In this document: piece by piece, positions 7,154 to 33,155 of the stretch
Layout: every line of letters starts with the position of its first letter
Position numbering within the stretch: the stretch's first letter is position 1
From: Allacma fusca
Taxonomy: Eukaryota; Arthropoda; Collembola; Symphypleona; Sminthuridae
DNA length: 64,000 bases
Assembly: GCA_947179485.1 (NCBI GenBank)
Contig: OX359248.1
Coordinates: forward strand, 45,580,847 to 45,644,846
Direction of reading: 5' to 3'
Notes under the pieces: model-generated
Seen by the model: the letters and a program-made list of their open reading frames with translations, nothing else
Told to the model about the DNA's origin: nothing
Databases searched by the model: none
Position numbers and translations under genes: made by a program

Positions 7154-7227
7154 ATTGAATGTTAATGGAGTATTAGGTTGTGATTAAAATGAGCCTTAAT
7201 TTGGTAAGGGGCCGCACGTGATTCTTC

Positions 7228-7362
7228 GATCGGGATTCAGCTCCGATCAGGCGATCCGGTTGTCGGCTGCTATCCTCCGGGTCAGATTGTAGCTCTGATC
7301 AGGCATTCGGGTTGGCGGCTGCTACTTCCTTAATTATGTACCTGTCAGATTTCAGCTCTGAC
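7228..7362 (-). other. Leader RNA: three stem-loops, family B
   Basis: Three consecutive hairpins in the leader: 7228-7248 (arms GATCGG/CCGATC), 7280-7300 (GGTCAG/CTGATC, one G-T pair) and 7344-7362 (GTCAG/CTGAC). Each encloses nine bases, read on the plus strand as GATTCAGCT, ATTGTAGCT and ATTTCAGCT. Each hairpin is followed on the plus strand by a block close to GGTTGNCGGCTGCT. The same three-part design with different stem sequences occurs in A1 at 32073-32195. Confidence 0.75.
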
Positions 7363-7476
7363 GGGCATTCCGGTTGCCGGCTGCTACGCTTCCCTCATGT
7401 TTGCCAGTTAAAGAGTCTTGTTTTGAGATTATACTGACAATGAGGCGATGTTTGAGCAAGTTGTGGTGGGAATCGT

Positions 7477-7549
7477 GTATGTATGTGCATGTGCACTACT
7501 AATCTACTCTAGTATACGTCTAATTTCTAAGCAGTATACTCATACATAC
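7477..7549 (-). other. Long-range 9-bp stem in family B leader
   Basis: GTATGTATG (7477-7485) is the exact reverse complement of CATACATAC (7541-7549), enclosing 55 nt. The homologous place in A1 (32408-32476) has a different but equally perfect 9-bp pairing around 51 nt. Confidence 0.55.
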
Positions 7550-7560
7550 TGTCAATAAGT

Positions 7561-7919
7561 CCCTGGAAGTATTTTCCTCAGCATAATGCCCTAAACCTGT
7601 GAGGATGCCCTGCTCTGCACCTCTAACGAGAATGTAGAGCCTCTAATAGAGCGCGTCCCTATCCCACAGGCACGGGAAAGATGGTGCCTGTAGGCTAATA
7701 TATGTCATGGAAGTGGCTAGGGTCTTATACAGCACACGACCGGTAAAGGTATTGACACATACGCATAGAAAAGTTATGTCATGCTATTTTAAAGTTCATA
7801 TATAGTCCAAACAAGGAATTACATATGCATAAACACTACAGCATAACTAGTAGCATTTATAGCAATACGCCAGCATAAAAGATAGGATAGGTCAATTATA
7901 GTGTCCACGTTGTACCCAT
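7561..7919 (-). other. Diverged U2 3' spacer joined to truncated A
   Basis: Reading on the minus strand from the truncated element, this stretch resembles the spacer that follows intact U2 3' fragments (for example GTACAACGTGG versus GTACGACCTGG, then a shared CCTATCC/CCTACCC block). It therefore looks like U2 downstream DNA of another unit type, joined directly to the broken family-A ORF with the U2 3' fragment lost. No coding gene is seen. Confidence 0.6.
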
Positions 7920-9439
7920 GCAGAGGGGTCCAGTAGGCGCCAGTGTTTGTATGTGAGTCTGTCATCTCCTGGAGCTGTGTTCTCACTTTTCTTCAGAATG
8001 TCAACCGTTTCTTTGTCACGGAAGTTGTCCATGTAGACTTCTCTAGTGGCAGGGGTGATATTTTGGAAGTATGAAGGGTCACTATGTTTTCTGGCATTGG
8101 TGGATTGAAAGTGCCTGGTGACTACTTCTATTGGAATTTTGCATCTGTCTCCTTCACCCTCTGTGATTAATCGAACCGCTCTTCTTCTATTTCGATTGTA
8201 GAGCTTCTGGAGCTCTTCGGGATTCTGTATGTTGATTTTTTTGGGGGCAGTGGGACCATTTTGTATAACTTCTGGTAGTTTTACTGCTGTTTGGGCACAG
8301 ATGGTGATCTCATTGATTATGTCTTCAAAGTCAGTCCAGTTCTGCTCCGAGATTTCACTCTCCAGTATATGCTTGATGCGTGGCAAGAAAGCATGAAGGG
8401 CAGATTCGTCATTTGCATCAATCATTGCTGGCTCGAACGGGGCACGTACGTCAGGATCTTCGAGCAGGTCTGGGAGGGGTTCAAATTCCGTAACGCTGGT
8501 AGTGCTACCATCTATTATGGTTGAAGAACTGCTAACTGAGAAGGAGTCGTCGTCATTTCCATCATCTATCATGTCTTCCGGTGGGGGAGGAAGAGGAGAA
8601 GAAGTCGTTATTGCTGCGTTAGTGGTGGGTAGTTCAGCCAAAGGGATAATGTTGTTGGTTGGAGGAAGTTGTTCTTCGAGTGGTTGTCTCTCTTCTGCGA
8701 CCGCGTGAGTCTCCTGTTGGGTACCCTGTATGCCGCTCACATCATTCTGGACATTCATGTCTGTGTTAAGATTAATGACATGGTTAGGGCTCAGATCATT
8801 TATATATAATTCGTTAGGGACCTGACTGTCGATTACCGCCTCCAGGAATTCCTCACTCTCGAGGTTAGCCAGTTGGGAGATATTGTGGTGTGATGATTGT
8901 TGAGGCCTTTGCGGGGGGCAAGTGCCTAGTCTCCTACGTAATGATGAGTTTTCTGGTAGTTGGGAGAGCTGGTTTTCCTTGTCCTGTCTCTTTGCTTTGG
9001 CGAGAGTATGGTTTTGTAGAGCTTTCTTCTTCATGAATGCGGCACCGCATCCCTCGTCTGGGCATTTGAAAGGGAGCTCCTCCGAGTCCATTACGCTTGT
9101 GTCTAAGATGGTGCTGAGATTTGGGGCTGTTGAGGTCGAGTGAGGCAAGGGATCAGGTTCCCGTGACCTAGATCTAGTTCGGGTCGAGATGGCGGTACAT
9201 CTGTGGTTAGACGGTTTCATCCCGAGGACCTGTTCACAACGACTGCAGATATTGACGCTGCCATTGATGTTGATGTTGTGGTTGCTCGCATAATGCTTCT
9301 CTAGCGAGCGCCGTTGGGATGTCCATCCTGAGGTACTGGCAGTGTACGATGCAGCGCAACCGTTCTCAGGGCATCGAAATATGGTTGGGACTGGGTGGAA
9401 AACCACGATTTTGTCTTCGCGTCGTTTTGGTTGACTCAT
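7892..9439 (-). CDS. Truncated family A protein: zinc fingers without RT or endonuclease (515 aa)
   Basis: This open ORF matches the first ~506 residues of the 1252-aa family-A protein, then ends after a few junction-encoded residues. It keeps the CCHH finger (Cys23, Cys28, His49, His54), the CCHC knuckle (Cys65, Cys68, His79, Cys81), the CPDEGC module (here followed by AAFMKKK rather than AAFLKKK), the acidic Ser-rich linker and the NRNRRRAVRLITEGEGDRC block. It stops just before the reverse transcriptase core, at the residues LLDPSA. The junction near 7920-7923 shares GCAG with the intact copies, so microhomology joining is plausible. It could be inert, or a DNA/RNA-binding fragment that competes with full-length protein; the latter is speculation. 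Start is the MSQPKRR ATG. Confidence 0.8.
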   Translation of the reverse strand: MSQPKRREDKIVVFHPVPTIFRCPENGCAASYTASTSGWTSQRRSLEKHYASNHNININGSVNICSRCEQVLGMKPSNHRCTAISTRTRSRSREPDPLPHSTSTAPNLSTILDTSVMDSEELPFKCPDEGCGAAFMKKKALQNHTLAKAKRQDKENQLSQLPENSSLRRRLGTCPPQRPQQSSHHNISQLANLESEEFLEAVIDSQVPNELYINDLSPNHVINLNTDMNVQNDVSGIQGTQQETHAVAEERQPLEEQLPPTNNIIPLAELPTTNAAITTSSPLPPPPEDMIDDGNDDDSFSVSSSSTIIDGSTTSVTEFEPLPDLLEDPDVRAPFEPAMIDANDESALHAFLPRIKHILESEISEQNWTDFEDIINEITICAQTAVKLPEVIQNGPTAPKKINIQNPEELQKLYNRNRRRAVRLITEGEGDRCKIPIEVVTRHFQSTNARKHSDPSYFQNITPATREVYMDNFRDKETVDILKKSENTAPGDDRLTYKHWRLLDPSAWVQRGHYN

Positions 9440-9449
9440 TTTGTAGCTA

Positions 9450-9856
9450 TCATTGCTTTGAAGGACTTCGAGTATAAATATCGAAGACTGTTGCACACTG
9501 GCTCGCAAATAGTTTTAATGAGAGTCGCATATTTCACGTGCTCCGTCAATGCATTGTATAAGTACGGCCGAGAAAAATTGTCAGAGTCTGAAGAAGAGCT
9601 ACCAAAGCCTGTCTTTAACGGCTAGTGGTGGCTATGCTGCTCGTATTTTAATATAGAGCCAACATAAGGAAAATGAATATGCTGCAACGATATAGCATAG
9701 CTAATAAGGCTGGCAGCAATATAGAAGAATAGATAGGGTAGGTAATTATAAATTACCAGGTCGTACCTATGGAGATTTCCTCGTTGGGAGAAATCCAATA
9801 GTACAGGGTACGGAGAAGCTTTTATGCTTTACTTAAGAATCTTTATTTGAATAATA
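9450..9856 (-). other. U2 downstream spacer
   Basis: 407-bp spacer, near-identical to 2733-3139, lying between a U2 3' fragment and the truncated A copy. It abuts the element 10 nt upstream of the ORF ATG, with no leader and no U2 5' fragment in between. Minus-strand AATAAA at 9842-9847. Confidence 0.8.
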
Positions 9857-10004
9857 GTGGGCCGGTCCTGACTGTACTGCAATGCCAGGTCAACCCGTGT
9901 CCCGGCTGGAGCAAGCTCCAAAACCAGGACTATTTCCAAAAATCAGTTTAATATACTGGGGTCCATTTGGACCCGTATCAGATATTAAGCTGATAAGAAC
10001 AGAT
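9857..10004 (-). pseudogene. U2 snRNA 3' fragment
   Basis: Same U2 nt 39-to-end fragment as at 3140-3287, downstream of element A5. Sm site and stem-loop III/IV sequence are intact; nt 1-38 are absent. Confidence 0.95.
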
Positions 10005-10082
10005 ATTTATTCGTCAATCTTTACATGTGATACATTCATTCAACCATTGGTATTAGTTACGTCATATGCATTCATCTGTCTT

Positions 10083-10119
10083 GTGCTGTATAGTAATAGG
10101 ATAGGAACATAAGAAGCAC
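10083..10119 (-). other. 3' UTR hairpin, family A
   Basis: Arms GTGCT (10083-10087) and AGCAC (10115-10119) sit at the position equivalent to the family-B hairpin at 3353-3390. It is repeated in every A copy at intervals of 4510. Confidence 0.45.
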
Positions 10120-10190
10120 TCATTATCATTTCTCCTGTCATTGTATACATTATTGTCATATATAGTAAGTTAATTTTGGGTAAAATAATT

Positions 10191-13100
10191 TCAATATTGT
10201 CTGTGTCCAGTTAGGAACTCCACATAAATGTCTCGAGACCACTTTATTACTTCGGAGACAGCGAGTTTTCTCATCAGTATGAGGTATGATTTCGCAGCAA
10301 GCTTTGATAGGAACTCGTCATTGCCAGGGTCCCAAGATCCTAACGATCCTATCACCACTGGTTCCACTGTTACCTCCGCTTCTGGATATCGCTGCTTGTA
10401 CCTGGCAATCAGTGGCTGGTATTTGTCTATCTTTCGTTGGCGGGCATCTGCTAGGGCCTGGGACCGGTTCTCGAATGGGATGGTGACGTCAATGATGAAT
10501 ACTCTTGATTTTGAAGTCATCTCCTCTAATAGTACGAGGTCAGGTCGTAGTTCAGTTCCGATTGAAGCGGTGTTTTCACTTAGTATTCGCATCTTCTTCC
10601 TCCGGTTCCCGAGGGCAGCTTTCTTTACGCGTTCGAGTACTGCATTGTGTCGTAAGGTCTGGGCCTGTAGATATGGAGGGCAGTGATTGAGTACGTGGGG
10701 TAGTGTTTCATTTTCAGCTCCACATCGTCTACATTTTTTGTCGCAGTTATGGTCCCATATTTTGGCACCGTTGAGGGGAACCTGGTTGAGTCTCGCTCTA
10801 TGTATGAAGCGCCAGTCCGCGAATCTCGTGTGCGCGCCAGAGTTGTAGAAGTGAGTGCTGGACTTCGCCATTCCTACACATTCCAGGACTTTCCCTTGGT
10901 TGGGTTTGGAGAGTAGAATTTGGTCCCGTTGCTCACGTTGGTGTGTGCGTATTTTCCGAGCGACTAGTTTGCTCTGGTGAGACTTGACTGTAGTATTTCC
11001 AAATTTTATGGTTTTGAAGGACCCGTTTTCAAAGTCCCAATTGATTCCGAATCTCGTTGACGCTGCACGGGCTCTAGTCCATATGTTGCTTCTGGCGTTG
11101 GTATTTCCTCTGAAGGGTACATTATTTGACCCGTTGAGGAATTCACAGATTTCTGGCCAAGTGGTTTCTCTTCGAATTCGTAGTCTAACTGTTCTTCGTA
11201 GGCTCCGAGCAGCTGCTTCTTTGACAACTCTGTCACGGGAGGTAAGGAGTTTAATTGCTCCGTCGATGGCGAAGATGTCGTTGTCTTCAGCGAGTAAAGG
11301 GAGGGACATTGCTCCAGATTTTCTACTCCCGTACAAGAATTCTGTGCAAGCACTATTGGGGAGGTTGAGGGTCTTTTTTATTCCTTTCCTTAGGAGGTCG
11401 TCAATCGCCTTCCATTCAGTTTTATTAAACTGGTTGGTCCTGATGGCATAGTTGCAGGAGGGGAAGAAAAAGGTTTTGAGTGCGTCAATTCTTTGCCACG
11501 GGGCTAGTTTGGCTTCCAGGATTTTTGAGGCATAGTTGAGGTGGTTCTGAAGGGTGCCCAGGTTGTTGTTGAGGGAGAAACCAATAGGGTTTCCAAGGTA
11601 TAGCATGGTGTCGCCTTCCCCAAGGCATTTGATTGATTCTTCATTGATGGTGAAATGGGAGGTTCTTGAGCCGGCGGGGGTTTTGCCACTGCGGTGTATT
11701 GTGGCACATTTTGTGACATTGAATTCTACCCCTATTTTTCGGATGTCTTGTACAAGGTAGTCCAGTTTCTCTTGGGCTTCTGGGATAGACTTTGCAAGGG
11801 GGATCCAATCATCCGCAAACGCCAGCATATGCAGACAGTGTGACTCATATCCTTCATGGAGTCTTTGTATGGATGGGTTAGTCATGAGGTTATACAGGTC
11901 CCCGCTTAGACGGTGGCCTTGTTGGACTCCGTTTTGAATCAGTATTGGATCAGAGGATGCGGAGTCAGTGATGATAGTAGTGGTGGCGTCAGTGTACATG
12001 TCTTGGACAATCTTAGTGAAAGTGGTACCTGTTCCATATTTGATGGTGGCAAGTATTATGGCGTCGTGAGGGGCATTCCCAAATGCATTTTTGGCGTCGA
12101 GGGGTATCGCAATGTACTCACTCTTCTCGTTGAGGGCTTCCTCAAATATTTCATTGAGCATGAAATTGTGCTCGAAGCACCCGTCATGTGGCGTAAAACC
12201 TTTTTGTGCTGGATGGAGGATGTCCTCTGTCATTAGCCAAACTCTGAATCGCCTCGCTACAAGTCCGCAGTATGTTTTGTATATGGTCCTGGATATAGCA
12301 ATCGGTCTCCAGTTGGTAATGATGCTGGGGTCCCCTTTCTTATAAATTAGAACCGTCTTTGAGGTCTTCCATATTGATGGGACACGGCAGTACTTGAGAC
12401 ATGTGTTGTATATGGGGGTTAGGACTGTGGAAGAGGGGTCCAGTAGGCGCCAGTGTTTGTATGTGAGTCTGTCATCTCCTGGAGCTGTGTTCTCACTTTT
12501 CTTCAGAATGTCAACCGTTTCTTTGTCACGGAAGTTGTCCATGTAGACTTCTCTAGTAGCAGGGGTGATATTTTGGAAGTATGAGGGGTCACTATGTTTT
12601 CTGGCATTGGTGGATTGAAAGTGCCTGGTGACTACTTCTATTGGAATTTTGCATCTGTCTCCTTCACCCTCTGTGATTAATCGAACCGCTCTTCTTCTAT
12701 TTCGATTGTAGAGCTTCTGGAGCTCTTCGGGATTCTGTATGTTGATTTTTTTGGGGGCTGTGGGACCATTTTGTATAACTTCTGGTAGTTTTACTGCTGT
12801 TTGGGCACAGATGGTGATCTCATTGATTATGTCTTCAAAGTCAGTCCAGTTCTGCTCCGAGATTTCACTCTCCAGTATATGCTTGATGCGTGGCAAGAAA
12901 GCATGAAGGGCAGATTCGTCATTTGCATCAATCATTGCTGGCTCGAACGGGGCACGTACGTCAGGATCTTCGGGCAGGTCTGGGAGGGGTTCAAATTCCG
13001 TAACGCTGGTAGTGCTACCATCTATTATGGTTGAAGAACTGCTAACTGAGAAGGAGTCGTCGTCATTTCCATCATCTATCATGTCTTCCGGTGGGGGAGG

Positions 13101-13949
13101 AAGAGGAGAAGAAGTCGTTATTGCTGCGTTAGTGGTGGGTAGTTCAGCCAAAGGGATAATGTTGTTGGTTGGAGGAAGTTGTTCTTCGAGTGGTTGTCTC
13201 TCTTCTGCGACCGCGTGAGTCTCCTGTTGGGTACCCTGTATGCCGCTCACATCATTCTGGACATTCATGTCTGTGTTAAGATTAATGACATGGTTAGGGC
13301 TCAGATCATTTATATATAATTCGTTAGGGACCTGACTGTCGATTACCGCCTCCAGGAATTCCTCACTCTCGAGGTTAGCCAGTTGGGAGATATTGTGGTG
13401 TGATGATTGTTGAGGCCTTTGCGGGGGGCAAGTGCCTAGTCTCCTACGTAATGATGAGTTTTCTGGTAGTTGGGAGAGCTGGTTTTCCTTGTCCTGTCTC
13501 TTTGCTTTGGCGAGAGTATGGTTTTGTAGAGCTTTCTTCTTCATGAATGCGGCACCGCATCCCTCGTCTGGGCATTTGAAAGGGAGCTCCTCCGAGTCCA
13601 TTACGCTTGTGTCTAAGATGGTGCTGAGATTTGGGGCTGTTGAGGTCGAGTGAGGCAAGGGATCAGGTTCCCGTGACCTAGATCTAGTTCGGGTCGAGAT
13701 GGCGGTACATCTGTGGTTAGACGGTTTCATCCCGAGGACCTGTTCACAACGACTGCAGATATTGACGCTGCCATTGATGTTGATGTTGTGGTTGCTCGCA
13801 TAATGCTTCTCTAGCGAGCGCCGTTGGGATGTCCATCCTGAGGTACTGGCAGTGTACGATGCAGCGCAACCGTTCTCAGGGCATCGAAATATGGTTGGGA
13901 CTGGGTGGAAAACCACGATTTTGTCTTCGCGTCGTTTTGGTTGACTCAT
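10191..13949 (-). CDS. Utopia-like polyprotein, copy A5 (1252 aa)
   Basis: Intact ORF with every catalytic motif: reverse transcriptase motif A Asp618 (IPLDAKNAFGN), motif B NGVQQGHRLSG, motif C FADD Asp713-Asp714; C-terminal finger Cys1073, Cys1076, His1085, Cys1090; endonuclease RPDLVLL Asp1137 and IIDVTIPFE Asp1154. It differs from A2-A4 by LLDPSS for LLDPSA and by WDHNCDK for WDQNCDK. Reading open upstream of the MSQPKRR ATG extends 23 codons into U2 spacer to a TTG with a TAA three codons further up and no ATG, so the MSQ start is chosen. Without the native leader, expression would need a promoter in the spacer. Confidence 0.95.
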   Translation of the reverse strand: MSQPKRREDKIVVFHPVPTIFRCPENGCAASYTASTSGWTSQRRSLEKHYASNHNININGSVNICSRCEQVLGMKPSNHRCTAISTRTRSRSREPDPLPHSTSTAPNLSTILDTSVMDSEELPFKCPDEGCGAAFMKKKALQNHTLAKAKRQDKENQLSQLPENSSLRRRLGTCPPQRPQQSSHHNISQLANLESEEFLEAVIDSQVPNELYINDLSPNHVINLNTDMNVQNDVSGIQGTQQETHAVAEERQPLEEQLPPTNNIIPLAELPTTNAAITTSSPLPPPPEDMIDDGNDDDSFSVSSSSTIIDGSTTSVTEFEPLPDLPEDPDVRAPFEPAMIDANDESALHAFLPRIKHILESEISEQNWTDFEDIINEITICAQTAVKLPEVIQNGPTAPKKINIQNPEELQKLYNRNRRRAVRLITEGEGDRCKIPIEVVTRHFQSTNARKHSDPSYFQNITPATREVYMDNFRDKETVDILKKSENTAPGDDRLTYKHWRLLDPSSTVLTPIYNTCLKYCRVPSIWKTSKTVLIYKKGDPSIITNWRPIAISRTIYKTYCGLVARRFRVWLMTEDILHPAQKGFTPHDGCFEHNFMLNEIFEEALNEKSEYIAIPLDAKNAFGNAPHDAIILATIKYGTGTTFTKIVQDMYTDATTTIITDSASSDPILIQNGVQQGHRLSGDLYNLMTNPSIQRLHEGYESHCLHMLAFADDWIPLAKSIPEAQEKLDYLVQDIRKIGVEFNVTKCATIHRSGKTPAGSRTSHFTINEESIKCLGEGDTMLYLGNPIGFSLNNNLGTLQNHLNYASKILEAKLAPWQRIDALKTFFFPSCNYAIRTNQFNKTEWKAIDDLLRKGIKKTLNLPNSACTEFLYGSRKSGAMSLPLLAEDNDIFAIDGAIKLLTSRDRVVKEAAARSLRRTVRLRIRRETTWPEICEFLNGSNNVPFRGNTNARSNIWTRARAASTRFGINWDFENGSFKTIKFGNTTVKSHQSKLVARKIRTHQREQRDQILLSKPNQGKVLECVGMAKSSTHFYNSGAHTRFADWRFIHRARLNQVPLNGAKIWDHNCDKKCRRCGAENETLPHVLNHCPPYLQAQTLRHNAVLERVKKAALGNRRKKMRILSENTASIGTELRPDLVLLEEMTSKSRVFIIDVTIPFENRSQALADARQRKIDKYQPLIARYKQRYPEAEVTVEPVVIGSLGSWDPGNDEFLSKLAAKSYLILMRKLAVSEVIKWSRDIYVEFLTGHRQY

Positions 13950-13959
13950 TTTGTAGCTA

Positions 13960-14366
13960 TCATTGCTTTGAAGGACTTCGAGTATAAATATCGAAGACTG
14001 TTGCACACTGGCTCGCAAATAGTTTTAATGAGAGTCGCATATTTCACGTGCTCCGTCAATGCATTGTATAAGTACGGCCGAGAAAAATTGTCAGAGTCTG
14101 AAGAAGAGCTACCAAAGCCTGTCTTTAACGGCTAGTGGTGGCTATGCTGCTCGTATTTTAATATAGAGCCAACATAAGGAAAATGAATATGCTGCAACGA
14201 TATAGCATAGCTAATAAGGCTGGCAGCAATATAGAAGAATAGATAGGGTAGGTAATTATAAATTACCAGGTCGTACCTATGGAGATTTCCTCGTTGGGAG
14301 AAATCCAATAGTACAGGGTACGGAGAAGCTTTTATGCTTTACTTAAGAATCTTTATTTGAATAATA
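13960..14366 (-). other. U2 downstream spacer
   Basis: Spacer between the U2 3' fragment of A4 and the truncated start of A5, the same sequence as 9450-9856. No gene seen. Confidence 0.8.
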
Positions 14367-14514
14367 GTGGGCCGGTCCTGACTGTACTGCAATGCCAGGT
14401 CAACCCGTGTCCCGGCTGGAGCAAGCTCCAAAACCAGGACTATTTCCAAAAATCAGTTTAATATACTGGGGTCCATTTGGACCCGTATCAGATATTAAGC
14501 TGATAAGAACAGAT
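14367..14514 (-). pseudogene. U2 snRNA 3' fragment
   Basis: U2 nt 39-to-end, downstream flank of element A4; same sequence as at 9857-10004. Confidence 0.95.
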
Positions 14515-18469: not shown

Positions 18470-18876
18470 TCATTGCTTTGAAGGACTTCGAGTATAAATA
18501 TCGAAGACTGTTGCACACTGGCTCGCAAATAGTTTTAATGAGAGTCGCATATTTCACGTGCTCCGTCAATGCATTGTATAAGTACGGCCGAGAAAAATTG
18601 TCAGAGTCTGAAGAAGAGCTACCAAAGCCTGTCTTTAACGGCTAGTGGTGGCTATGCTGCTCGTATTTTAATATAGAGCCAACATAAGGAAAATGAATAT
18701 GCTGCAACGATATAGCATAGCTAATAAGGCTGGCAGCAATATAGAAGAATAGATAGGGTAGGTAATTATAAATTACCAGGTCGTACCTATGGAGATTTCC
18801 TCGTTGGGAGAAATCCAATAGTACAGGGTACGGAGAAGCTTTTATGCTTTACTTAAGAATCTTTATTTGAATAATA
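18470..18876 (-). other. U2 downstream spacer
   Basis: Third copy of the 407-bp spacer, between the U2 3' fragment of A3 and A4. No gene seen. Confidence 0.8.
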
Positions 18877-19024
18877 GTGGGCCGGTCCTGACTGTACTGC
18901 AATGCCAGGTCAACCCGTGTCCCGGCTGGAGCAAGCTCCAAAACCAGGACTATTTCCAAAAATCAGTTTAATATACTGGGGTCCATTTGGACCCGTATCA
19001 GATATTAAGCTGATAAGAACAGAT
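18877..19024 (-). pseudogene. U2 snRNA 3' fragment
   Basis: U2 nt 39-to-end, downstream flank of element A3. Confidence 0.95.
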
Positions 19025-22979: not shown

Positions 22980-23386
22980 TCATTGCTTTGAAGGACTTCG
23001 AGTATAAATATCGAAGACTGTTGCACACTGGCTCGCAAATAGTTTTAATGAGAGTCGCATATTTCACGTGCTCCGTCAATGCATTGTATAAGTACGGCCG
23101 AGAAAAATTGTCAGAGTCTGAAGAAGAGCTACCAAAGCCTGTCTTTAACGGCTAGTGGTGGCTATGCTGCTCGTATTTTAATATAGAGCCAACATAAGGA
23201 AAATGAATATGCTGCAACGATATAGCATAGCTAATAAGGCTGGCAGCAATATAGAAGAATAGATAGGGTAGGTAATTATAAATTACCAGGTCGTACCTAT
23301 GGAGATTTCCTCGTTGGGAGAAATCCAATAGTACAGGGTACGGAGAAGCTTTTATGCTTTACTTAAGAATCTTTATTTGAATAATA
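22980..23386 (-). other. U2 downstream spacer
   Basis: Fourth copy of the 407-bp spacer, between the U2 3' fragment of A2 and A3. No gene seen. Confidence 0.8.
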
Positions 23387-23534
23387 GTGGGCCGGTCCTG
23401 ACTGTACTGCAATGCCAGGTCAACCCGTGTCCCGGCTGGAGCAAGCTCCAAAACCAGGACTATTTCCAAAAATCAGTTTAATATACTGGGGTCCATTTGG
23501 ACCCGTATCAGATATTAAGCTGATAAGAACAGAT
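23387..23534 (-). pseudogene. U2 snRNA 3' fragment
   Basis: U2 nt 39-to-end, downstream flank of element A2. Confidence 0.95.
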
Positions 23535-26500
23535 ATTTATTCGTCAATCTTTACATGTGATACATTCATTCAACCATTGGTATTAGTTACGTCATATGCA
23601 TTCATCTGTCTTGTGCTGTATAGTAATAGGATAGGAACATAAGAAGCACTCATTATCATTTCTCCTGTCATTGTATACATTATTGTCATATATAGTAAGT
23701 TAATTTTGGGTAAAATAATTTCAATATTGTCTGTGTCCAGTTAGGAACTCCACATAAATGTCTCGAGACCACTTTATTACTTCGGAGACAGCGAGTTTTC
23801 TCATCAGTATGAGGTATGATTTCGCAGCAAGCTTTGATAGGAACTCGTCATTGCCAGGGTCCCAAGATCCTAACGATCCTATCACCACTGGTTCCACTGT
23901 TACCTCCGCTTCTGGATATCGCTGCTTGTACCTGGCAATCAGTGGCTGGTATTTGTCTATCTTTCGTTGGCGGGCATCTGCTAGGGCCTGGGACCGGTTC
24001 TCGAATGGGATGGTGACGTCAATGATGAATACTCTTGATTTTGAAGTCATCTCCTCTAATAGTACGAGGTCAGGTCGTAGTTCAGTTCCGATTGAAGCGG
24101 TGTTTTCACTTAGTATTCGCATCTTCTTCCTCCGGTTCCCGAGGGCAGCTTTCTTTACGCGTTCGAGTACTGCATTGTGTCGTAAGGTCTGGGCCTGTAG
24201 ATATGGAGGGCAGTGATTGAGTACGTGGGGTAGTGTTTCATTTTCAGCTCCACATCGTCTACATTTTTTGTCGCAGTTTTGGTCCCATATTTTGGCACCG
24301 TTGAGGGGAACCTGGTTGAGTCTCGCTCTATGTATGAAGCGCCAGTCCGCGAATCTCGTGTGCGCGCCAGAGTTGTAGAAGTGAGTGCTGGACTTCGCCA
24401 TTCCTACACATTCCAGGACTTTCCCTTGGTTGGGTTTGGAGAGTAGAATTTGGTCCCGTTGCTCACGTTGGTGTGTGCGTATTTTCCGAGCGACTAGTTT
24501 GCTCTGGTGAGACTTGACTGTAGTATTTCCAAATTTTATGGTTTTGAAGGACCCGTTTTCAAAGTCCCAATTGATTCCGAATCTCGTTGACGCTGCACGG
24601 GCTCTAGTCCATATGTTGCTTCTGGCGTTGGTATTTCCTCTGAAGGGTACATTATTTGACCCGTTGAGGAATTCACAGATTTCTGGCCAAGTGGTTTCTC
24701 TTCGAATTCGTAGTCTAACTGTTCTTCGTAGGCTCCGAGCAGCTGCTTCTTTGACAACTCTGTCACGGGAGGTAAGGAGTTTAATTGCTCCGTCGATGGC
24801 GAAGATGTCGTTGTCTTCAGCGAGTAAAGGGAGGGACATTGCTCCAGATTTTCTACTCCCGTACAAGAATTCTGTGCAAGCACTATTGGGGAGGTTGAGG
24901 GTCTTTTTTATTCCTTTCCTTAGGAGGTCGTCAATCGCCTTCCATTCAGTTTTATTAAACTGGTTGGTCCTGATGGCATAGTTGCAGGAGGGGAAGAAAA
25001 AGGTTTTGAGTGCGTCAATTCTTTGCCACGGGGCTAGTTTGGCTTCCAGGATTTTTGAGGCATAGTTGAGGTGGTTCTGAAGGGTGCCCAGGTTGTTGTT
25101 GAGGGAGAAACCAATAGGGTTTCCAAGGTATAGCATGGTGTCGCCTTCCCCAAGGCATTTGATTGATTCTTCATTGATGGTGAAATGGGAGGTTCTTGAG
25201 CCGGCGGGGGTTTTGCCACTGCGGTGTATTGTGGCACATTTTGTGACATTGAATTCTACCCCTATTTTTCGGATGTCTTGTACAAGGTAGTCCAGTTTCT
25301 CTTGGGCTTCTGGGATAGACTTTGCAAGGGGGATCCAATCATCCGCAAACGCCAGCATATGCAGACAGTGTGACTCATATCCTTCATGGAGTCTTTGTAT
25401 GGATGGGTTAGTCATGAGGTTATACAGGTCCCCGCTTAGACGGTGGCCTTGTTGGACTCCGTTTTGAATCAGTATTGGATCAGAGGATGCGGAGTCAGTG
25501 ATGATAGTAGTGGTGGCGTCAGTGTACATGTCTTGGACAATCTTAGTGAAAGTGGTACCTGTTCCATATTTGATGGTGGCAAGTATTATGGCGTCGTGAG
25601 GGGCATTCCCAAATGCATTTTTGGCGTCGAGGGGTATCGCAATGTACTCACTCTTCTCGTTGAGGGCTTCCTCAAATATTTCATTGAGCATGAAATTGTG
25701 CTCGAAGCACCCGTCATGTGGCGTAAAACCTTTTTGTGCTGGATGGAGGATGTCCTCTGTCATTAGCCAAACTCTGAATCGCCTCGCTACAAGTCCGCAG
25801 TATGTTTTGTATATGGTCCTGGATATAGCAATCGGTCTCCAGTTGGTAATGATGCTGGGGTCCCCTTTCTTATAAATTAGAACCGTCTTTGAGGTCTTCC
25901 ATATTGATGGGACACGGCAGTACTTGAGACATGTGTTGTATATGGGGGTTAGGACTGTGGCAGAGGGGTCCAGTAGGCGCCAGTGTTTGTATGTGAGTCT
26001 GTCATCTCCTGGAGCTGTGTTCTCACTTTTCTTCAGAATGTCAACCGTTTCTTTGTCACGGAAGTTGTCCATGTAGACTTCTCTAGTAGCAGGGGTGATA
26101 TTTTGGAAGTATGAGGGGTCACTATGTTTTCTGGCATTGGTGGATTGAAAGTGCCTGGTGACTACTTCTATTGGAATTTTGCATCTGTCTCCTTCACCCT
26201 CTGTGATTAATCGAACCGCTCTTCTTCTATTTCGATTGTAGAGCTTCTGGAGCTCTTCGGGATTCTGTATGTTGATTTTTTTGGGGGCTGTGGGACCATT
26301 TTGTATAACTTCTGGTAGTTTTACTGCTGTTTGGGCACAGATGGTGATCTCATTGATTATGTCTTCAAAGTCAGTCCAGTTCTGCTCCGAGATTTCACTC
26401 TCCAGTATATGCTTGATGCGTGGCAAGAAAGCATGAAGGGCAGATTCGTCATTTGCATCAATCATTGCTGGCTCGAACGGGGCACGTACGTCAGGATCTT

Positions 26501-27489
26501 CGGGCAGGTCTGGGAGGGGTTCAAATTCCGTAACGCTGGTAGTGCTACCATCTATTATGGTTGAAGAACTGCTAACTGAGAAGGAGTCGTCGTCATTTCC
26601 ATCATCTATCATGTCTTCCGGTGGGGGAGGAAGAGGAGAAGAAGTCGTTATTGCTGCGTTAGTGGTGGGTAGTTCAGCCAAAGGGATAATGTTGTTGGTT
26701 GGAGGAAGTTGTTCTTCGAGTGGTTGTCTCTCTTCTGCGACCGCGTGAGTCTCCTGTTGGGTACCCTGTATGCCGCTCACATCATTCTGGACATTCATGT
26801 CTGTGTTAAGATTAATGACATGGTTAGGGCTCAGATCATTTATATATAATTCGTTAGGGACCTGACTGTCGATTACCGCCTCCAGGAATTCCTCACTCTC
26901 GAGGTTAGCCAGTTGGGAGATATTGTGGTGTGATGATTGTTGAGGCCTTTGCGGGGGGCAAGTGCCTAGTCTCCTACGTAATGATGAGTTTTCTGGTAGT
27001 TGGGAGAGCTGGTTTTCCTTGTCCTGTCTCTTTGCTTTGGCGAGAGTATGGTTTTGTAGAGCTTTCTTCTTCATGAATGCGGCACCGCATCCCTCGTCTG
27101 GGCATTTGAAAGGGAGCTCCTCCGAGTCCATTACGCTTGTGTCTAAGATGGTGCTGAGATTTGGGGCTGTTGAGGTCGAGTGAGGCAAGGGATCAGGTTC
27201 CCGTGACCTAGATCTAGTTCGGGTCGAGATGGCGGTACATCTGTGGTTAGACGGTTTCATCCCGAGGACCTGTTCACAACGACTGCAGATATTGACGCTG
27301 CCATTGATGTTGATGTTGTGGTTGCTCGCATAATGCTTCTCTAGCGAGCGCCGTTGGGATGTCCATCCTGAGGTACTGGCAGTGTACGATGCAGCGCAAC
27401 CGTTCTCAGGGCACCGAAATATGGTTGGGACTGGGTGGAAAACCACGATTTTGTCTTCGCGTCGTTTTGGTTGACTCATTTTGTAGCTA
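23535..27489 (-). mobile_element. Utopia-like element A2 (5'-truncated, ORF intact)
   Basis: Member of the tandem nearest to complete copy A1. It has the same 5' breakpoint as A3-A5, while the spacer upstream of it carries a 3-bp deletion and other small differences. Confidence 0.9.
23721..27479 (-). CDS. Utopia-like polyprotein, copy A2 (1252 aa)
   Basis: Intact ORF with the same protein as A3 and A4. It differs from A1 at scattered positions, for example AAFMKKK versus AAFLKKK in the third finger module, DLPEDPDV versus DLLEDPDI in the linker, and GVEFNVTK versus GVVFNVTK after the FADD motif. None of these touches a catalytic residue. Confidence 0.95.
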   Translation of the reverse strand: MSQPKRREDKIVVFHPVPTIFRCPENGCAASYTASTSGWTSQRRSLEKHYASNHNININGSVNICSRCEQVLGMKPSNHRCTAISTRTRSRSREPDPLPHSTSTAPNLSTILDTSVMDSEELPFKCPDEGCGAAFMKKKALQNHTLAKAKRQDKENQLSQLPENSSLRRRLGTCPPQRPQQSSHHNISQLANLESEEFLEAVIDSQVPNELYINDLSPNHVINLNTDMNVQNDVSGIQGTQQETHAVAEERQPLEEQLPPTNNIIPLAELPTTNAAITTSSPLPPPPEDMIDDGNDDDSFSVSSSSTIIDGSTTSVTEFEPLPDLPEDPDVRAPFEPAMIDANDESALHAFLPRIKHILESEISEQNWTDFEDIINEITICAQTAVKLPEVIQNGPTAPKKINIQNPEELQKLYNRNRRRAVRLITEGEGDRCKIPIEVVTRHFQSTNARKHSDPSYFQNITPATREVYMDNFRDKETVDILKKSENTAPGDDRLTYKHWRLLDPSATVLTPIYNTCLKYCRVPSIWKTSKTVLIYKKGDPSIITNWRPIAISRTIYKTYCGLVARRFRVWLMTEDILHPAQKGFTPHDGCFEHNFMLNEIFEEALNEKSEYIAIPLDAKNAFGNAPHDAIILATIKYGTGTTFTKIVQDMYTDATTTIITDSASSDPILIQNGVQQGHRLSGDLYNLMTNPSIQRLHEGYESHCLHMLAFADDWIPLAKSIPEAQEKLDYLVQDIRKIGVEFNVTKCATIHRSGKTPAGSRTSHFTINEESIKCLGEGDTMLYLGNPIGFSLNNNLGTLQNHLNYASKILEAKLAPWQRIDALKTFFFPSCNYAIRTNQFNKTEWKAIDDLLRKGIKKTLNLPNSACTEFLYGSRKSGAMSLPLLAEDNDIFAIDGAIKLLTSRDRVVKEAAARSLRRTVRLRIRRETTWPEICEFLNGSNNVPFRGNTNARSNIWTRARAASTRFGINWDFENGSFKTIKFGNTTVKSHQSKLVARKIRTHQREQRDQILLSKPNQGKVLECVGMAKSSTHFYNSGAHTRFADWRFIHRARLNQVPLNGAKIWDQNCDKKCRRCGAENETLPHVLNHCPPYLQAQTLRHNAVLERVKKAALGNRRKKMRILSENTASIGTELRPDLVLLEEMTSKSRVFIIDVTIPFENRSQALADARQRKIDKYQPLIARYKQRYPEAEVTVEPVVIGSLGSWDPGNDEFLSKLAAKSYLILMRKLAVSEVIKWSRDIYVEFLTGHRQY

Positions 27490-27894
27490 TCATTGCTTTG
27501 AAGGACTTCGAGTATAAATATCGAAGACTGTTGCACACTGGCTCGCAAATAGTTTTAATGAGAGTCGCATATTTCACGTGCTCCGTCAATGCATTGTATA
27601 AGTACGGCCGAGAAAAATTGTCAGTCTGAAGAAGAGCTACCAAAGCCTGTCTTTAACGGCTAGTGGTGGCTATGCTGCTCGTATTTTAATATAGAGCCAA
27701 CATAAGGAAAATGAATATGCTGCAACGATATAGCATAGCTAATAAGGCTGGCAGCAATATAGAAGAATAGATAGGGTAGGTAATTATAAATTACCAGGTC
27801 GTACCTATGGAGATTTCCTCGATGGGAGAAATCCAATAGTACAGGGTACGGAGAAGCTTTTATGCTTTACTTAAGAATCTTTATTTGAATAATA
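27490..27894 (-). other. U2 downstream spacer (variant)
   Basis: 405-bp spacer after the U2 3' fragment of A1, with the missing GAG noted for this unit and a few substitutions. It runs straight into element A2. Confidence 0.8.
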
Positions 27895-28042
27895 ATGGGC
27901 CGGTCCTGACTGTACTGCAATGCCAGGTCAACCCGTGTCCCGGCTGGAGCAAGCTCCAAAACCAGGACTATTTCCAAAAATCAGTTTAATATACTGGGGT
28001 CCATTTGGACCCGTATCAGATATTAAGCTGATAAGAACAGAT
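27895..28042 (-). pseudogene. U2 snRNA 3' fragment of the split gene holding A1
   Basis: U2 nt 39-to-end, matching the 5' fragment at 33118-33155 to make one gene interrupted by A1. Together the halves total 186 nt, close to the usual insect U2 length. The last base differs from the other copies (plus-strand AATAATGGGCC here, AATAGTGGGCC elsewhere). Confidence 0.95.
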
Positions 28043-28228
28043 ATTTATTCGTCAATCTTTACATGTGATACATTCATTCAACCATTGGTATTAGTTACGT
28101 CATACGCATTCATCTGTCTTGTGCTGTATAGTAATAGGATAGGAACATAAGAAGCACTCATTATCATTTCTCCTGTCATTGTATACATTATTGTCATATA
28201 TAGTAAGTTAATTTTGGGTAAAATAATT

Positions 28229-31200
28229 TCAATATTGTCTGTGTCCAGTTAGGAACTCCACATAAATGTCTCGAGACCACTTTATTACTTCGGAGACAGC
28301 GAGTTTTCTCATCAGTATGAGGTATGATTTCGCAGCAAGCTTTGATAGGAACTCGTCATTGCCAGGGTCCCAAGATCCTAACGATCCTATCACCACTGGT
28401 TCCACTGTTACCTCCGCTTCTGGATATCGCTGCTTGTACCTGGCAATCAGTGGTTGGTATTTGTCTATCTTTCGTTGGCGGGCATCTGCTAGGGCCTGGG
28501 ACCGGTTCTCGAATGGGATGGTGACGTCAATGATGAATACTCTTGATTTTGAAGTCATCTCCTCTAATAGTACGAGGTCAGGTCGTAGTTCAGTTCCGAT
28601 TGCAGCGGTGTTTTCACTTAGTATTCGCATCTTCTTCCTCCGGTTCCCGAGGGCAGCTTTCTTTACGCGTTCGAGTACTGCATTGTGTCGTAAGGTCTGG
28701 GCCTGTAGATATGGAGGGCAGTGATTGAGTACGTGGGGTAGTGTTTCATTTTCAGCTCCACATCGTCTACATTTTTTGTCGCAGTTATGGTCCCATACTT
28801 TGGCACCGTTGAGGGGAACCTGGTTGAGTCTTGCTCTATGTATGAAGCGCCAGTCCGCGAATCTCGTGTGCGCGCCAGAGTTGTAGAAGTGAGTGCTGGA
28901 CTTCGCCATTCCCACACATTCCAGGACTTTCCCTTGGTTGGGTTTGGAGAGTAGAATTTGGTCCCGTTGCTCACGTTGGTGTGTGCGTATTTTCCGAGCG
29001 ACTAGTTTGCTCTGGTGAGACTTGACTGTAGTATTTCCAAATTTTATGGTTTTGAAGGACCCGTTTTCAAAGTCCCAATTGATTCCGAATCTCGTTGACG
29101 CTGCACGGGCTCTAGTCCATATGTTGCTTCTGGCGTTGGTATTTCCTCTGAAAGGTGCATTATTTGACCCGTTGAGGAATTCACAGATTTCTGGCCAAGT
29201 GGTTTCTCTTCGAATTCGTAGTCTAACTGTTCTTCGTAGGCTCCGAGCAGCTGCTTCTTTGACAACTCTGTCACGGGAGGTAAGGAGTTTAATTGCTCCG
29301 TCGATGGCGAAGATGTCGTTGTCTTCAGCGAGTAAAGGGAGGGACATTGCTCCAGATTTTCTACTCCCGTACAAGAATTCTGTGCAAGCACTATTGGGGA
29401 GGTTGAGGGTCTTTTTTATTCCTTTCCTTAGGAGGTCGTCAATCGCCTTCCATTCAGTTTTATTAAACTGGTTGGTCCTGATGGCATAGTTGCAGGAGGG
29501 GAAGAAAAAGGTTTTGAGTGCGTCAATTCTTTGCCACGGGGCTAGTTTGGCTTCCAGGATTTTTGAGGCATAGTTGAGGTGGTTCTGAAGGGTGCCCAGG
29601 TTGTTGTTGAGGGAGAAACCAATAGGGTTTCCAAGGTATAGCATGGTGTCGCCTTCCCCAAGGCATTTGATTGATTCTTCATTGATGGTGAAATGGGAGG
29701 TTCTTGAGCCGGCGGGGGTTTTGCCACTGCGGTGTATTGTGGCACATTTTGTGACATTGAATACTACCCCTATTTTTCGGATGTCTTGTACAAGGTAGTC
29801 CAGTTTCTCTTGGGCTTCTGGGATTGACTTTGCAAGGGGGATCCAATCATCCGCAAACGCCAGCATATGCAGACAGTGTGACTCATATCCTTCATGGAGT
29901 CTTTGTATGGATGGGTTAGTCATGAGGTTATACAGGTCCCCGCTTAGTCGGTGGCCTTGTTGGACTCCGTTTTGAATCAGTATTGGATCAGAGGATGCGG
30001 AGTCAGTGATGATAGTAGTGGTGGCGTCAGTGTACATGTCTTGGACAATCTTAGTGAAAGTGGTACCTGTTCCATATTTGATGGTGGCAAGTATGATGGC
30101 GTCGTGAGGGGCATTCCCAAATGCATTTTTGGCGTCGAGGGGTATCGCAATGTACTCACTCTTCTCGTTGAGGGCTTCCTCAAATATTTCATTGAGCATG
30201 AAATTGTGCTCGAAGCACCCGTCATGTGGCGTAAAACCTTTTTGTGCTGGATGGAGGATGTCCTCTGTCATTAGCCAAACTCTGAATCGCCTCGCTACAA
30301 GTCCGCAGTATGTTTTGTATATGGTCCTGGATATAGCAATCGGTCTCCAGTTGGTAATGATGCTGGGGTCCCCTTTCTTATAAATTAGAACCGTCTTCGA
30401 GGTCTTCCATATTGATGGGACACGGCAGTACTTGAGACATGTGTTGTATATGGGGGTTAGGACTGTGGCAGAGGGGTCCAGTAGGCGCCAGTGTTTGTAT
30501 GTGAGTCTGTCATCTCCTGGAGCTGTGTTCTCACTTTTCTTCAGAATGTCAACCGTTTCTTTGTCACGGAAGTTGTCCATGTAGACTTCTCTAGTAGCAG
30601 GGGTGATATTTTGGAAGTATGAGGGGTCACTATGTTTTCTGGCATTGGTGGATTGAAAGTGCCTGGTGACTACTTCTATTGGAATTTTGCATCTGTCTCC
30701 TTCACCCTCTGTGATTAATCGAACCGCTCTTCTTCTATTTCGATTGTATAGCTTCTGGAGCTCTTCGGGATTCTGTATGTTGATTTTTTTGGGGGCTGTG
30801 GGACCATTTTGTATAACTTCTGGTAGTTTTACTGCTGTTTGGGCACAGATGGTGATCTCATTGATTATGTCTTCAAAGTCAGTCCAGTTCTGCTCCGAGA
30901 TTTCACTCTCCAGTATATGCTTGATGCGTGGCAAGAAAGCATGAAGGGCAGATTCGTCATTTGCATCAATCATTGCTGGCTCGAACGGGGCACGTATGTC
31001 AGGATCTTCGAGCAGGTCTGGGAGGGGTTCAAATTCCGTAACGCTGGTAGTGCTACCATCTATTATGGTTGAAGAACTGCTAACTGAGAAGGATTCGTCG
31101 TCATTTTCATCATCTATCATGTCTTCCGGTGGGGGAGGAAGAGGAGAAGAAGTCGTTATTGCTGCGTTAGTGGTGGGTAGTTCAGCCAAAGGGATAATGT

Positions 31201-31987
31201 TGTTGGTTGGAGGAAGTTGTTCTTCGAGTGGTTGTCTCTCTTCTGCAACCGCGTGAGTCTCCTGTTGGGTACCCTGTATGCCGCTCACATCATTCTGGAC
31301 ATTCATGTCTGTGTTAAGATTAATGACATGGTTAGGGCTCAGATCATTTATATATAATTCGTTAGGGACCTGACTGTCGATTACCGCCTCCAGGAATTCC
31401 TCACTCTCGAGGTTAGCCAGTTGGGAGATATTGTGGTGTGATGATTGTTGAGGCCTTTGCGGGGGGCAAGTGCCTAGTCTCCTACGTAATGATGAGTTTT
31501 CTGGTAGTTGGGAGAGCTGGTTTTCCTTGTCCTGTCTCTTTGCTTTGGCGAGAGTATGGTTTTGTAGAGCTTTCTTCTTCAGGAATGCGGCACCGCATCC
31601 CTCGTCTGGGCATTTGAAAGGTAGCTCCTCCGAGTCCATTACGCTTGTGTCTAAGATGGTGCTGAGATTTGGGGCTGTTGAGGTCGAGTGAGGCAAGGGA
31701 TCAGGTTCCCGTGACCTAGATCTAGTTCGGGTCGAGATGGCGGTACATCTGTGGTTAGACGGTTTCATCCCGAGGACCTGTTCACAACGACTGCAGATAT
31801 TGACGCTGCCATTGATGTTGATGTTGTGGTTGCTCGCATAATGCTTCTCTAGCGAGCGCCGTTGGGATGTCCATCCTGAGGTACTGGCAGTGTACGATGC
31901 AGCGCAACCGTTCTCAGGGCACCGAAATATGGTTGGGACTGGGTGGAAGACCACGATTTTGTCTTCGCGTCGTTTTGGTTGACTCAT
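28229..31987 (-). CDS. Utopia-like polyprotein, complete element A1 (1252 aa)
   Basis: Intact ORF whose product should nick U2 DNA and copy the element RNA at the nick. Domains: CCHH finger Cys23, Cys28, His49, His54; CCHC knuckle Cys65, Cys68, His79, Cys81; third module Cys126, Cys131, His144; acidic Ser-rich region near residues 290-350; a basic NRNRRRAVRLI block; reverse transcriptase with Asp618, NGVQQGHRLSG and FADD 713-714; Cys-x2-Cys-x8-His-x4-Cys at 1073-1090; endonuclease Asp1137 and Asp1154. This is the only family-A copy with its native leader and a U2 promoter-proximal fragment upstream, so it is the best candidate for an expressed copy. Confidence 0.96.
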   Translation of the reverse strand: MSQPKRREDKIVVFHPVPTIFRCPENGCAASYTASTSGWTSQRRSLEKHYASNHNININGSVNICSRCEQVLGMKPSNHRCTAISTRTRSRSREPDPLPHSTSTAPNLSTILDTSVMDSEELPFKCPDEGCGAAFLKKKALQNHTLAKAKRQDKENQLSQLPENSSLRRRLGTCPPQRPQQSSHHNISQLANLESEEFLEAVIDSQVPNELYINDLSPNHVINLNTDMNVQNDVSGIQGTQQETHAVAEERQPLEEQLPPTNNIIPLAELPTTNAAITTSSPLPPPPEDMIDDENDDESFSVSSSSTIIDGSTTSVTEFEPLPDLLEDPDIRAPFEPAMIDANDESALHAFLPRIKHILESEISEQNWTDFEDIINEITICAQTAVKLPEVIQNGPTAPKKINIQNPEELQKLYNRNRRRAVRLITEGEGDRCKIPIEVVTRHFQSTNARKHSDPSYFQNITPATREVYMDNFRDKETVDILKKSENTAPGDDRLTYKHWRLLDPSATVLTPIYNTCLKYCRVPSIWKTSKTVLIYKKGDPSIITNWRPIAISRTIYKTYCGLVARRFRVWLMTEDILHPAQKGFTPHDGCFEHNFMLNEIFEEALNEKSEYIAIPLDAKNAFGNAPHDAIILATIKYGTGTTFTKIVQDMYTDATTTIITDSASSDPILIQNGVQQGHRLSGDLYNLMTNPSIQRLHEGYESHCLHMLAFADDWIPLAKSIPEAQEKLDYLVQDIRKIGVVFNVTKCATIHRSGKTPAGSRTSHFTINEESIKCLGEGDTMLYLGNPIGFSLNNNLGTLQNHLNYASKILEAKLAPWQRIDALKTFFFPSCNYAIRTNQFNKTEWKAIDDLLRKGIKKTLNLPNSACTEFLYGSRKSGAMSLPLLAEDNDIFAIDGAIKLLTSRDRVVKEAAARSLRRTVRLRIRRETTWPEICEFLNGSNNAPFRGNTNARSNIWTRARAASTRFGINWDFENGSFKTIKFGNTTVKSHQSKLVARKIRTHQREQRDQILLSKPNQGKVLECVGMAKSSTHFYNSGAHTRFADWRFIHRARLNQVPLNGAKVWDHNCDKKCRRCGAENETLPHVLNHCPPYLQAQTLRHNAVLERVKKAALGNRRKKMRILSENTAAIGTELRPDLVLLEEMTSKSRVFIIDVTIPFENRSQALADARQRKIDKYQPLIARYKQRYPEAEVTVEPVVIGSLGSWDPGNDEFLSKLAAKSYLILMRKLAVSEVIKWSRDIYVEFLTGHRQY

Positions 31988-32072
31988 TTTGTAGCTAAAA
32001 ACATAAAATTAAATAGCTTATTTGTTTATTGTGGCCATTCTTGTTGGGGGGTCAGGTTATGCGGGATACTTC

Positions 32073-32195
32073 GATTGGGTTTCAGCTCCAATCAAGCGGT
32101 CGGGTTGTCGGCTGCTCCTTCGTGATACAGATTTCAGCCCTGTTCAGGCGTTCTGGTTGACAGCTGCTCCTCCGTGAGACAGATTTCAGCCCTGT
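32073..32195 (-). other. Leader RNA: three stem-loops, family A
   Basis: Hairpins at 32073-32093 (GATTGG/CCAATC, loop GTTTCAGCT), 32127-32143 (ACAG/CTGT, loop ATTTCAGCC) and 32179-32195 (ACAG/CTGT, loop ATTTCAGCC), given on the plus strand. Each is followed by a block near GGTTGNCGGCTGCT. The first stem differs from family B (GATCGG/CCGATC) by a compensated base pair, and the others also keep pairing with different bases. Confidence 0.75.
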
Positions 32196-32407
32196 TACGG
32201 CGTTCAGGTTGACGGCTGCTACTTCATAACCTCTCCGTCTGGTTGATTTTGATGAGATGGGCCAGCAATTAATCATGCCCAGGAAGGGGGTTTCTTCCCC
32301 AATTTTGCGTAGTACCCAAACTCACTACAGTGATGCCTTGAGACACCGCCTGGGCAAGCTGGGCTTGGGGATTCTGGGTCACTTTCGGCTTTTGGAAAGA
32401 GTGTGTT

Positions 32408-32476
32408 TGTGTGTGTGCACTGTTTAACTACACTATGCGAGTGCGAGTACTACTATCTACGCAGCATACACACACA
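32408..32476 (-). other. Long-range 9-bp stem in A1 leader
   Basis: TGTGTGTGT (32408-32416) pairs exactly with ACACACACA (32468-32476) around 51 nt. It is simple-repeat sequence, but the homologous family-B arms are non-identical and also pair perfectly. Confidence 0.5.
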
Positions 32477-33117: not shown

Positions 33118-33155
33118 ACTACACTTTGATCTTAGCCAAAAGGCCGAGAAGCGAT
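33118..33155 (-). pseudogene. U2 snRNA 5' fragment (nt 1-38)
   Basis: The minus strand begins ATCGCTTCTCGGCCTTTTGG and continues to GTGTAGT, the invariant 5' end of U2, with nt 1 at 33155. It ends inside the branch-site recognition sequence where A1 begins. It is the only U2 5' end in the window. The U2 promoter should lie just upstream (33156 to about 33230, where the insect proximal sequence element would be), but I could not match a consensus there. The promoter may now transcribe A1. Confidence 0.95.

Follow-up and report, generated by a model that had tools for sequence, protein, structure and literature searches.

A repeated block-and-hairpin unit in the leaders of Utopia and of a second class of LINEs in Allacma fusca

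What might a row of small hairpins do in the leader RNA of a retrotransposon, directly upstream of its reading frame? The question arises from a stretch of 64,000 nucleotides of the Allacma fusca genome (contig OX359248.1, positions 45,580,847 to 45,644,846 of the forward strand; hereafter the window), for which a preliminary description had pointed to three hairpins in series in each of two Utopia families, A1 and B. The left half of the window is a minus-strand array of U2 fragments and Utopia elements, and the right half contains, also on the minus strand, what we take, from its reading frames, to be a talin gene, with a mir-190 precursor. Both A1 and B possess a single long ORF with a central reverse transcriptase (RT); a C..C..H..H pattern is seen at the N-terminus, and a zf-RVT match in A1 stays below the cut-off. 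U2 sequence from about nt 37 onward follows the elements at six places, in agreement with the Rfam U2 matches, and these six 3' parts together with nt 1-37 in front of A1 support insertion near nt 38/39 of U2. Since U2 nt 1-37 lie at 33118-33155, the A1 leader can be placed at 33117-31988. The 5' end of the B leader abuts a truncated A copy on its 7890 side, and its true 5' end is uncertain. Utopia is a LINE of the NeSL clade with a restriction-like endonuclease (RLE) that targets U2 snRNA genes, and the elements studied here resemble it in the U2 insertion site, the single long ORF with RT and the arrays formed with U2 (PMC4640811).

Several features of the array were observed alongside. Positions 1-33155 of the window hold no intact U2 gene, only six fragments starting at about nt 37 and the 5' half once. 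Two adjoining types of tandem array extend over G000:C12:45521000-45613000, which includes positions 1-33000 of the window; one is built of a 4510-bp U2-Utopia A unit and the other of a composite, mostly 6713 bp long, of Utopia B, truncated A and U2. The tandem A copies (period 4510) are leaderless, and all six joins seen in the window share one junction, some 10 nt before the ATG. Eleven B copies in the arrays have open ORFs, which suggests that the array was probably amplified recently. In two copies nearby (L052 and L053, at C12:45508000 and 45515000) the leader of a related family, A', is fused inside the third hairpin to the apparent reverse-transcriptase coding sequence of another copy.

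Table 1. Positions of the elements, leaders and hairpin units in the window, and of further hairpin modules in other LINE leaders.
Feature	Position	Strand	Details
Three units, Utopia A1 leader	32065..32222	-	hairpins 32073-32093 (u1), 32125-32145 (u2), 32177-32197 (u3)
Three units, Utopia B leader	7220..7387	-	hairpins 7228-7248 (u1), 7280-7300 (u2), 7343-7363 (u3)
Three units, second identical B leader	504..671	-	hairpins 512-532, 564-584, 627-647
Utopia A1 ORF	28229..31987	-	1252 aa, reverse transcriptase
Utopia B ORF	3449..7153	-	1234 aa, reverse transcriptase
Utopia A1 leader, U2 5' half to ORF	31988..33117	-	1130 nt, 16 AUGs, 14 upstream of units
U2 snRNA gene 5' part (nt 1-37), marker of A1 5' end	33118..33155	-	sequence match
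U2 3' part after A1 3' end	27890..28043	-	one of six such fragments in the window
B leader upstream of units	7388..7890	-	503 nt, 15 AUGs; not alignable with A leader
Module Y, two copies per leader	L098 343-405, 437-500; L099 503-572, 594-665; L100 293-360, 382-450		L098 numbered on its minus strand
Modules Z and W	L102 545-640, L103 615-715; L066-L070, L072, L073		L102 and L103 in minus-strand numbering

The three serial hairpins are indeed present in B (7228-7363) and in A1 (32073-32197), in RNA sense on the minus strand, and the second, identical B leader raises the number of units in the window from the six described earlier to nine. Read as RNA, the unit consists of a block of about 22 nt, AGCNGCYGNCAACCNGANNRCY, followed after a few nucleotides by a stem of up to 6 bp with a 9-nt loop of the form RGNNGAAAN or close to it; loop variants include AGCUACAAU, AGCUAAAAU, AGCUGAAUC and GGUUUAAAA. 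A GAAG follows 3' of the stem in most of the ORF-proximal units and in some others. That each hairpin adjoins a conserved block was borne out, as GGTTGNCRGCTGC occurs on the plus strand of the window nine times with at most one mismatch, compared to 0.31 occurrences expected. The description of a nearly constant loop on stems that differ yet remain paired stands overall and needs amending in its details: the middle B unit has one A.C mismatch in its stem (GAUCAG/CUGACC) and AGCUACAAU as its loop, and in the two distal A hairpins no more than four inner pairs are firm. The covariance models list u1 and u3 of A1, whereas u2, which overlaps u1 by 2 nt, has no listing of its own. Utopia units are spaced by 52 or 62 nt, end 77 nt (A) or 66 nt (B) before the ATG, and in elements with a known U2 junction lie about 560 nt (B') or 895 nt (A) from the 5' end; every unit examined, in Utopia or elsewhere, has the same sense as the ORF. 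The units are not a coding repeat: neither 52 nor 62 is divisible by 3, and in A and B alike every reading frame is interrupted somewhere within the three units, one frame of A staying open across two of them. Single-sequence folding energies of the leaders are ordinary (z -0.20 and 0.28), and the case for the unit hence rests on conservation and covariation.

How widely the unit occurs among the Utopia copies of this genome was assessed by searching its 393 Mb. A query with the B leader, units included, matched at least 21 places, which are assigned to families A, A', B, B' and C and to one copy, D, that resembles C. Each has two or three units, the third being cut in A', and L051 is a degenerate copy. 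No related leader without the motif, which would speak against it, was encountered: every untruncated Utopia leader examined in this genome carries the unit, and the ORF copies examined that lack it are truncated near the ATG, one of them (C10:40342600) being broken at the start. A protein search, suited to close relatives only, found no Utopia copies in viral contigs, and a protein search of plasmids likewise found none. Nine matches to the block pattern in viral contigs, selected through the block itself, reach at most 22.4 bits and are taken as chance.

The conservation of the unit can be judged against the divergence of the two families. The A and B proteins are identical at 861 of 1219 amino acids (70.6%), and only 98 of 362 four-fold sites agree (27%), about as many as between unrelated bases. 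The unit blocks nevertheless agree at 18-19 of 22 positions, and the leaders upstream of the units give no BLAST alignment between A and B. Since synonymous sites are saturated and the blocks are kept, their conservation lies far beyond neutral expectation.

We then analysed the stem for covariation in an alignment (A1) of 24 of the 26 distinct units, without the loop variant of L017 and the cut-off row of L018. Paired bases fill 91.7% of the 144 stem cells, compared to 76.7% in shuffles and 10.4-50.0% in slid pairings, 29 cells are changed on both sides (9.8 in shuffles), and the covariation score is 0.560 versus 0.265, a value that none of 500 shuffles attained. Two measures do not stand out, namely the number of pairs changed on both sides (5; 32/500) and the number of pair types (8; 495/500). 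The 13 Utopia units alone behave similarly, with 86.7% of 75 cells paired (slid pairings at most 56.0%) and 11 cells changed on both sides compared to 3.8 in shuffles, the same two measures again being ordinary (87/500 and 477/500). Because the rows are related and some are near-identical, we employed a tree-based null, home-made in the spirit of R-scape, in which the observed changes were placed at random on a FastTree tree to give 120 null alignments. Among 1275 column pairs, the two best are the stem pairs 31-43 (E 0.025) and 29-45 (E 0.15), so that covariation exceeds the phylogenetic expectation; a pair that does not belong to the stem ranks third (E 0.25). Of the remaining stem pairs, 27-47, 28-46 and 30-44 do not reach significance under this null and 32-42 is invariant, and each column of the two best pairs underwent about two changes on the tree. 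In the 24 rows, pair 29-45 reads U-A 11 times, C-G 10 times and A-U three times, and is never broken. For the inner four pairs, 95 of the 96 cells are complementary, all of them Watson-Crick and none G.U, and these pairs are also kept in the units that the search pattern missed (L051 u2 and u3, L071 u2) and in the L017 variant. The covariation is thus real but modest, two of the six pairs carrying statistical weight. The compensated stems had been read as the signature of a functional RNA. A selected, structured element is what they support, and covariation alone cannot separate RNA from DNA; likewise, G.U cells are as frequent as A.C cells (eight each), which leaves the pairing strand undecided by those cells.

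A search of the genome with the block pattern gave 545 matches, compared to 294 for the reversed pattern, and among the matches listed, about the first 100, are leaders of three further, mutually related LINE families with an apurinic-type endonuclease (APE) and two ORFs, E, F and G, with 14 units at eight places on four contigs. ORF2 of F and G encodes an endonuclease/exonuclease/phosphatase domain and an RT, with E resembling F, and the separate ORF1 of F and G gives only Pfam matches of coiled-coil type below the cut-off. The ORF2 of F shares 75-77% identity with that of E and 55% with that of G, a further leader, E3, is 77.5% like E over 734 nt, and the proteins of these LINEs have little in common with those of Utopia beyond the RT domain. 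A covariance model built from the 13 Utopia units alone retrieved all 14 LINE units at 24.9-48.0 bits (its E-values being rough), and the other block-matched places fetched from the genome scored 18.0 bits at most. The LINE version of the block, with up to two mismatches, matches 62 places in the 393 Mb (13 LINE, 47 Utopia and two other), its reversed control 13. The block served to find the LINE loci, and independent evidence there comes from the hairpin alone. Of the 13 LINE blocks with no or one mismatch, 11 are followed by a stem of 6 bp or more, compared to none of 21 other genome places, three of which have 5 bp; in the background such a stem follows one of 37 block-like viral matches and is found in 2.9% of random 40-mers. 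Two LINE rows with four mismatches inside ORF1 were excluded from the unit count, and two damaged units (L070 u2, L071 u1) have fewer pairs.

Within this second class, the unit is again conserved beyond neutral expectation between F and G. Four-fold sites agree at 44 of 168 positions between F and G (26%), 41 of 131 between E and G and 102 of 178 between E and F. F_u1 and G_u1 are 92% identical over 49 nt, unit-sized BLAST matches to the locus L072 range from 82 to 92%, and between the G leader and those of E and F the BLAST matches are confined to the unit and to a second island, W, some 90-100 nt long. The units lie 124, 133, 171 or 178 nt apart and, judged by eye, about 35 (G), 240 (E) or 670 nt (F) before the ATG. 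For LINEs H, I, J, K, M and O, six 801-nt segments taken from 0.9-1.7 kb ahead of the ORF2 match contain no unit, the highest score being 6.6 bits; as the F units lie 1.7-1.9 kb upstream, these segments are compatible with units further out. A common U2 target was considered as the reason for sharing and rejected, since four E/F/G 3' ends run into microsatellites and give no Rfam hit. These 3' ends (L105-L108) share the sequence GACUGUANGRGCUUCUGYCAWAUCGGUCAAUAAA in front of short microsatellites, which is perhaps the RT recognition site. The unit is thus a selected, structured module common to two retrotransposon classes.

Who reads this module? The zinc fingers or the reverse transcriptase of Utopia, which the preliminary description had suggested, appear less likely as partners because the unit also occurs in LINEs sharing little protein with Utopia beyond RT; a host partner would be likelier. 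We therefore favour, tentatively and with somewhat less than even confidence, a cis-acting structured RNA module that would be read by the host and whose likeliest outcome would be a non-scanning start of translation. The sense transcript would expose a single-stranded block of about 22 nt next to a hairpin, with one, two or three such units preceding the first long ORF, and a host component would recognise this arrangement; a host initiation factor or the ribosome may then be recruited and begin downstream without scanning. Leaders swapped between retrotransposon RNAs by template switching could account for the common ancestry of the units. The leaders contain 16 AUGs in 1130 nt (A) and 17 in 737 nt (B, with its uncertain 5' end). 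In leaders so rich in AUGs, ribosomes that scan from the 5' end would rarely arrive at the ORF, and entry downstream would serve both classes. Against a role in translation count two upstream AUGs in the spacer that follows the units in A (none in B) and two within the B units, and the variable distance of the units to the ATG counts against this best explanation as well. Seven units compared to 18S rRNA, part of which was masked, showed no common site of complementarity, the best case being a 10-nt run in A_u1 (2/60 shuffles). Translation from long, AUG-rich leaders remains our best guess for the function.

Other explanations deserve to be weighed against a host-read RNA module. By analogy with R2, the units could bind the element's own protein and steer its integration. 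The RNA of the R2 5' protein-binding region (PBM) sets the role of the downstream subunit, which acts in the second half of integration (PMC6895275), R2 and Utopia are both RLE-type LINEs (PMC4640811), and the position just 5' of the ORF fits. The unit is, however, also present in LINEs that have an endonuclease/exonuclease/phosphatase domain, possess a separate ORF1 and share only RT with Utopia, and A copies that retain the entire ORF but lack the leader have multiplied in the array, albeit probably through DNA duplication; we regard this possibility as unlikely. An equally unlikely alternative places the units in DNA, as modules of an internal promoter or enhancer in which the inverted repeat would be the dimer site of a host transcription factor. 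Such a factor would explain the sharing, leader modules do act as promoters in other LINEs, such as the TRE5-A A-module (PMC4559204) and Pr77 (PMC4035085), the Utopia spacings of 52 and 62 nt approximate five and six helical turns, and the inner pairs are of the Watson-Crick type only. Yet the degenerate halves of a dimer site need no complementarity, whereas the inner four pairs match almost without exception, and the LINE spacings are mostly out of helical phase. Moreover, transcription of A and B', which lie behind U2 nt 1-38, could start from the U2 promoter.

The many invariant unpaired positions, the single short stem, the several copies and the presence in two LINE classes are reminiscent of HDV-like ribozymes, and both an A copy (L050) and the similarity of A and B end at most about 15 nt upstream of the first unit. 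A small self-cleaving ribozyme trimming the transcript near the ORF is nevertheless improbable in our view, more so than either binding to the element's own protein or a promoter role: the A and B leaders and four LINE loci yielded no Rfam ribozyme match at E up to 10, and the units lie about 560 (B') or 895 nt (A) inside the elements. Furthermore, only one helix is supported; a pseudoknot between loop and block, drawn by eye on the alignment, is possible in many Utopia units and broken in several rows. Least of all do we expect the likeness to be a functionless leftover of a recent common ancestor or of tandem duplication, a view that the data already contradict. In its favour, the units of one leader are duplicates in tandem, two of the pairs could owe their changes to CpG decay in both arms, and the comparison of F and E is unsaturated (102 of 178 four-fold sites). 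Synonymous sites are saturated between A and B and between F and G, though, the A and B leaders cannot be aligned upstream of the units, and pair 29-45 changes by transversion, which CpG decay cannot explain, without a mismatch in 24 rows.

Searches for known RNA families gave no Rfam match overlapping the units in the window, the A and B leaders or four LINE loci. Mimicry of U2 stem-loop IIa was rejected, as local alignment of six units to U2 was no better than that of shuffles, except for B_u3 (16/500).

The unit belongs with the structured 5' modules of LINEs. To our knowledge, the R2 5' PBM has neither short repeated units nor a counterpart shared with APE LINEs, and we know of no covarying stem in the promoter modules of LINE leaders, which include the tandemly ordered modules of TRE5-A and the monomers of mouse L1. 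Like the R2 5' PBM, the unit is a structured RNA from the 5' region of an RLE LINE, but that RNA binds R2's own protein (PMC6895275). HDV-like ribozymes are found at the 5' ends of LINEs including R2 and Pr77, the latter being promoter and ribozyme at once and tandem in some elements (PMC4035085). They likewise represent a 5' RNA module of several LINEs (PMC4035085), from which the units differ in sequence, fold, the lack of an Rfam match and the distance from the element's 5' end. Repeated units in a 5' leader are also known from the LINE promoter modules (TRE5-A A-module, PMC4559204), which act as DNA, unlike the RNA unit proposed here. The terms hairpin, stem-loop, secondary structure and ribozyme are absent from the main text of the Utopia paper (PMC4640811), and the passages on Utopia in another article deal with proteins, flanks and phylogeny (PMC13188248). 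No such unit appeared in the titles and opening lines of abstracts of the literature searched, a scope without subscription papers and Repbase.

Translation and packaging of LINE RNAs with long leaders are poorly understood, and the unit provides a defined element on which they can be tested. Its alignment and covariance model can be used to search any animal genome. A selected unit in two element classes suggests that 5' leaders may pass between unrelated LINEs. A bolder version, which we consider a rather doubtful though serious possibility, would see in the unit a parasitic RNA module, possibly ribosome-recruiting or catalytic, that moves by template switching between retrotransposon classes having no common protein beyond RT and no evident target, the leaders of LINEs forming an exchangeable set of functional RNAs. 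Such a set would be what LINE leaders with the modules X, Y, Z and W described below amount to.

The leaders of other LINE families in this genome contain repeated hairpin modules of different kinds, named X, Y, Z and W (Table 1). Module X, found in the leaders L098-L101 of related LINE families, comprises GUGUACGGGUCGCGCUGUAACCAGGAAUUUGGACCCCGUACACC and relatives and is mostly a long stem with a conserved apical part; two copies were seen by eye in L098 and L101. Module Y has an outer stem GCYCGGG...CCCGWGGC and an inner one CCUCU...AGAGG, in which bases change together by eye. Its loop GYAACNNGRANGCU recalls the CAACCNGAANGCY of the unit, and the module is perhaps a permuted relative. In modules Z and W, a splice-donor-like GCGUAAGUA or CAGAUAAG comes after a long stem with the sequence GCCYUGG...CCAGGGC or one like it, and W is the second conserved island, besides the unit, in the E, F and G leaders.
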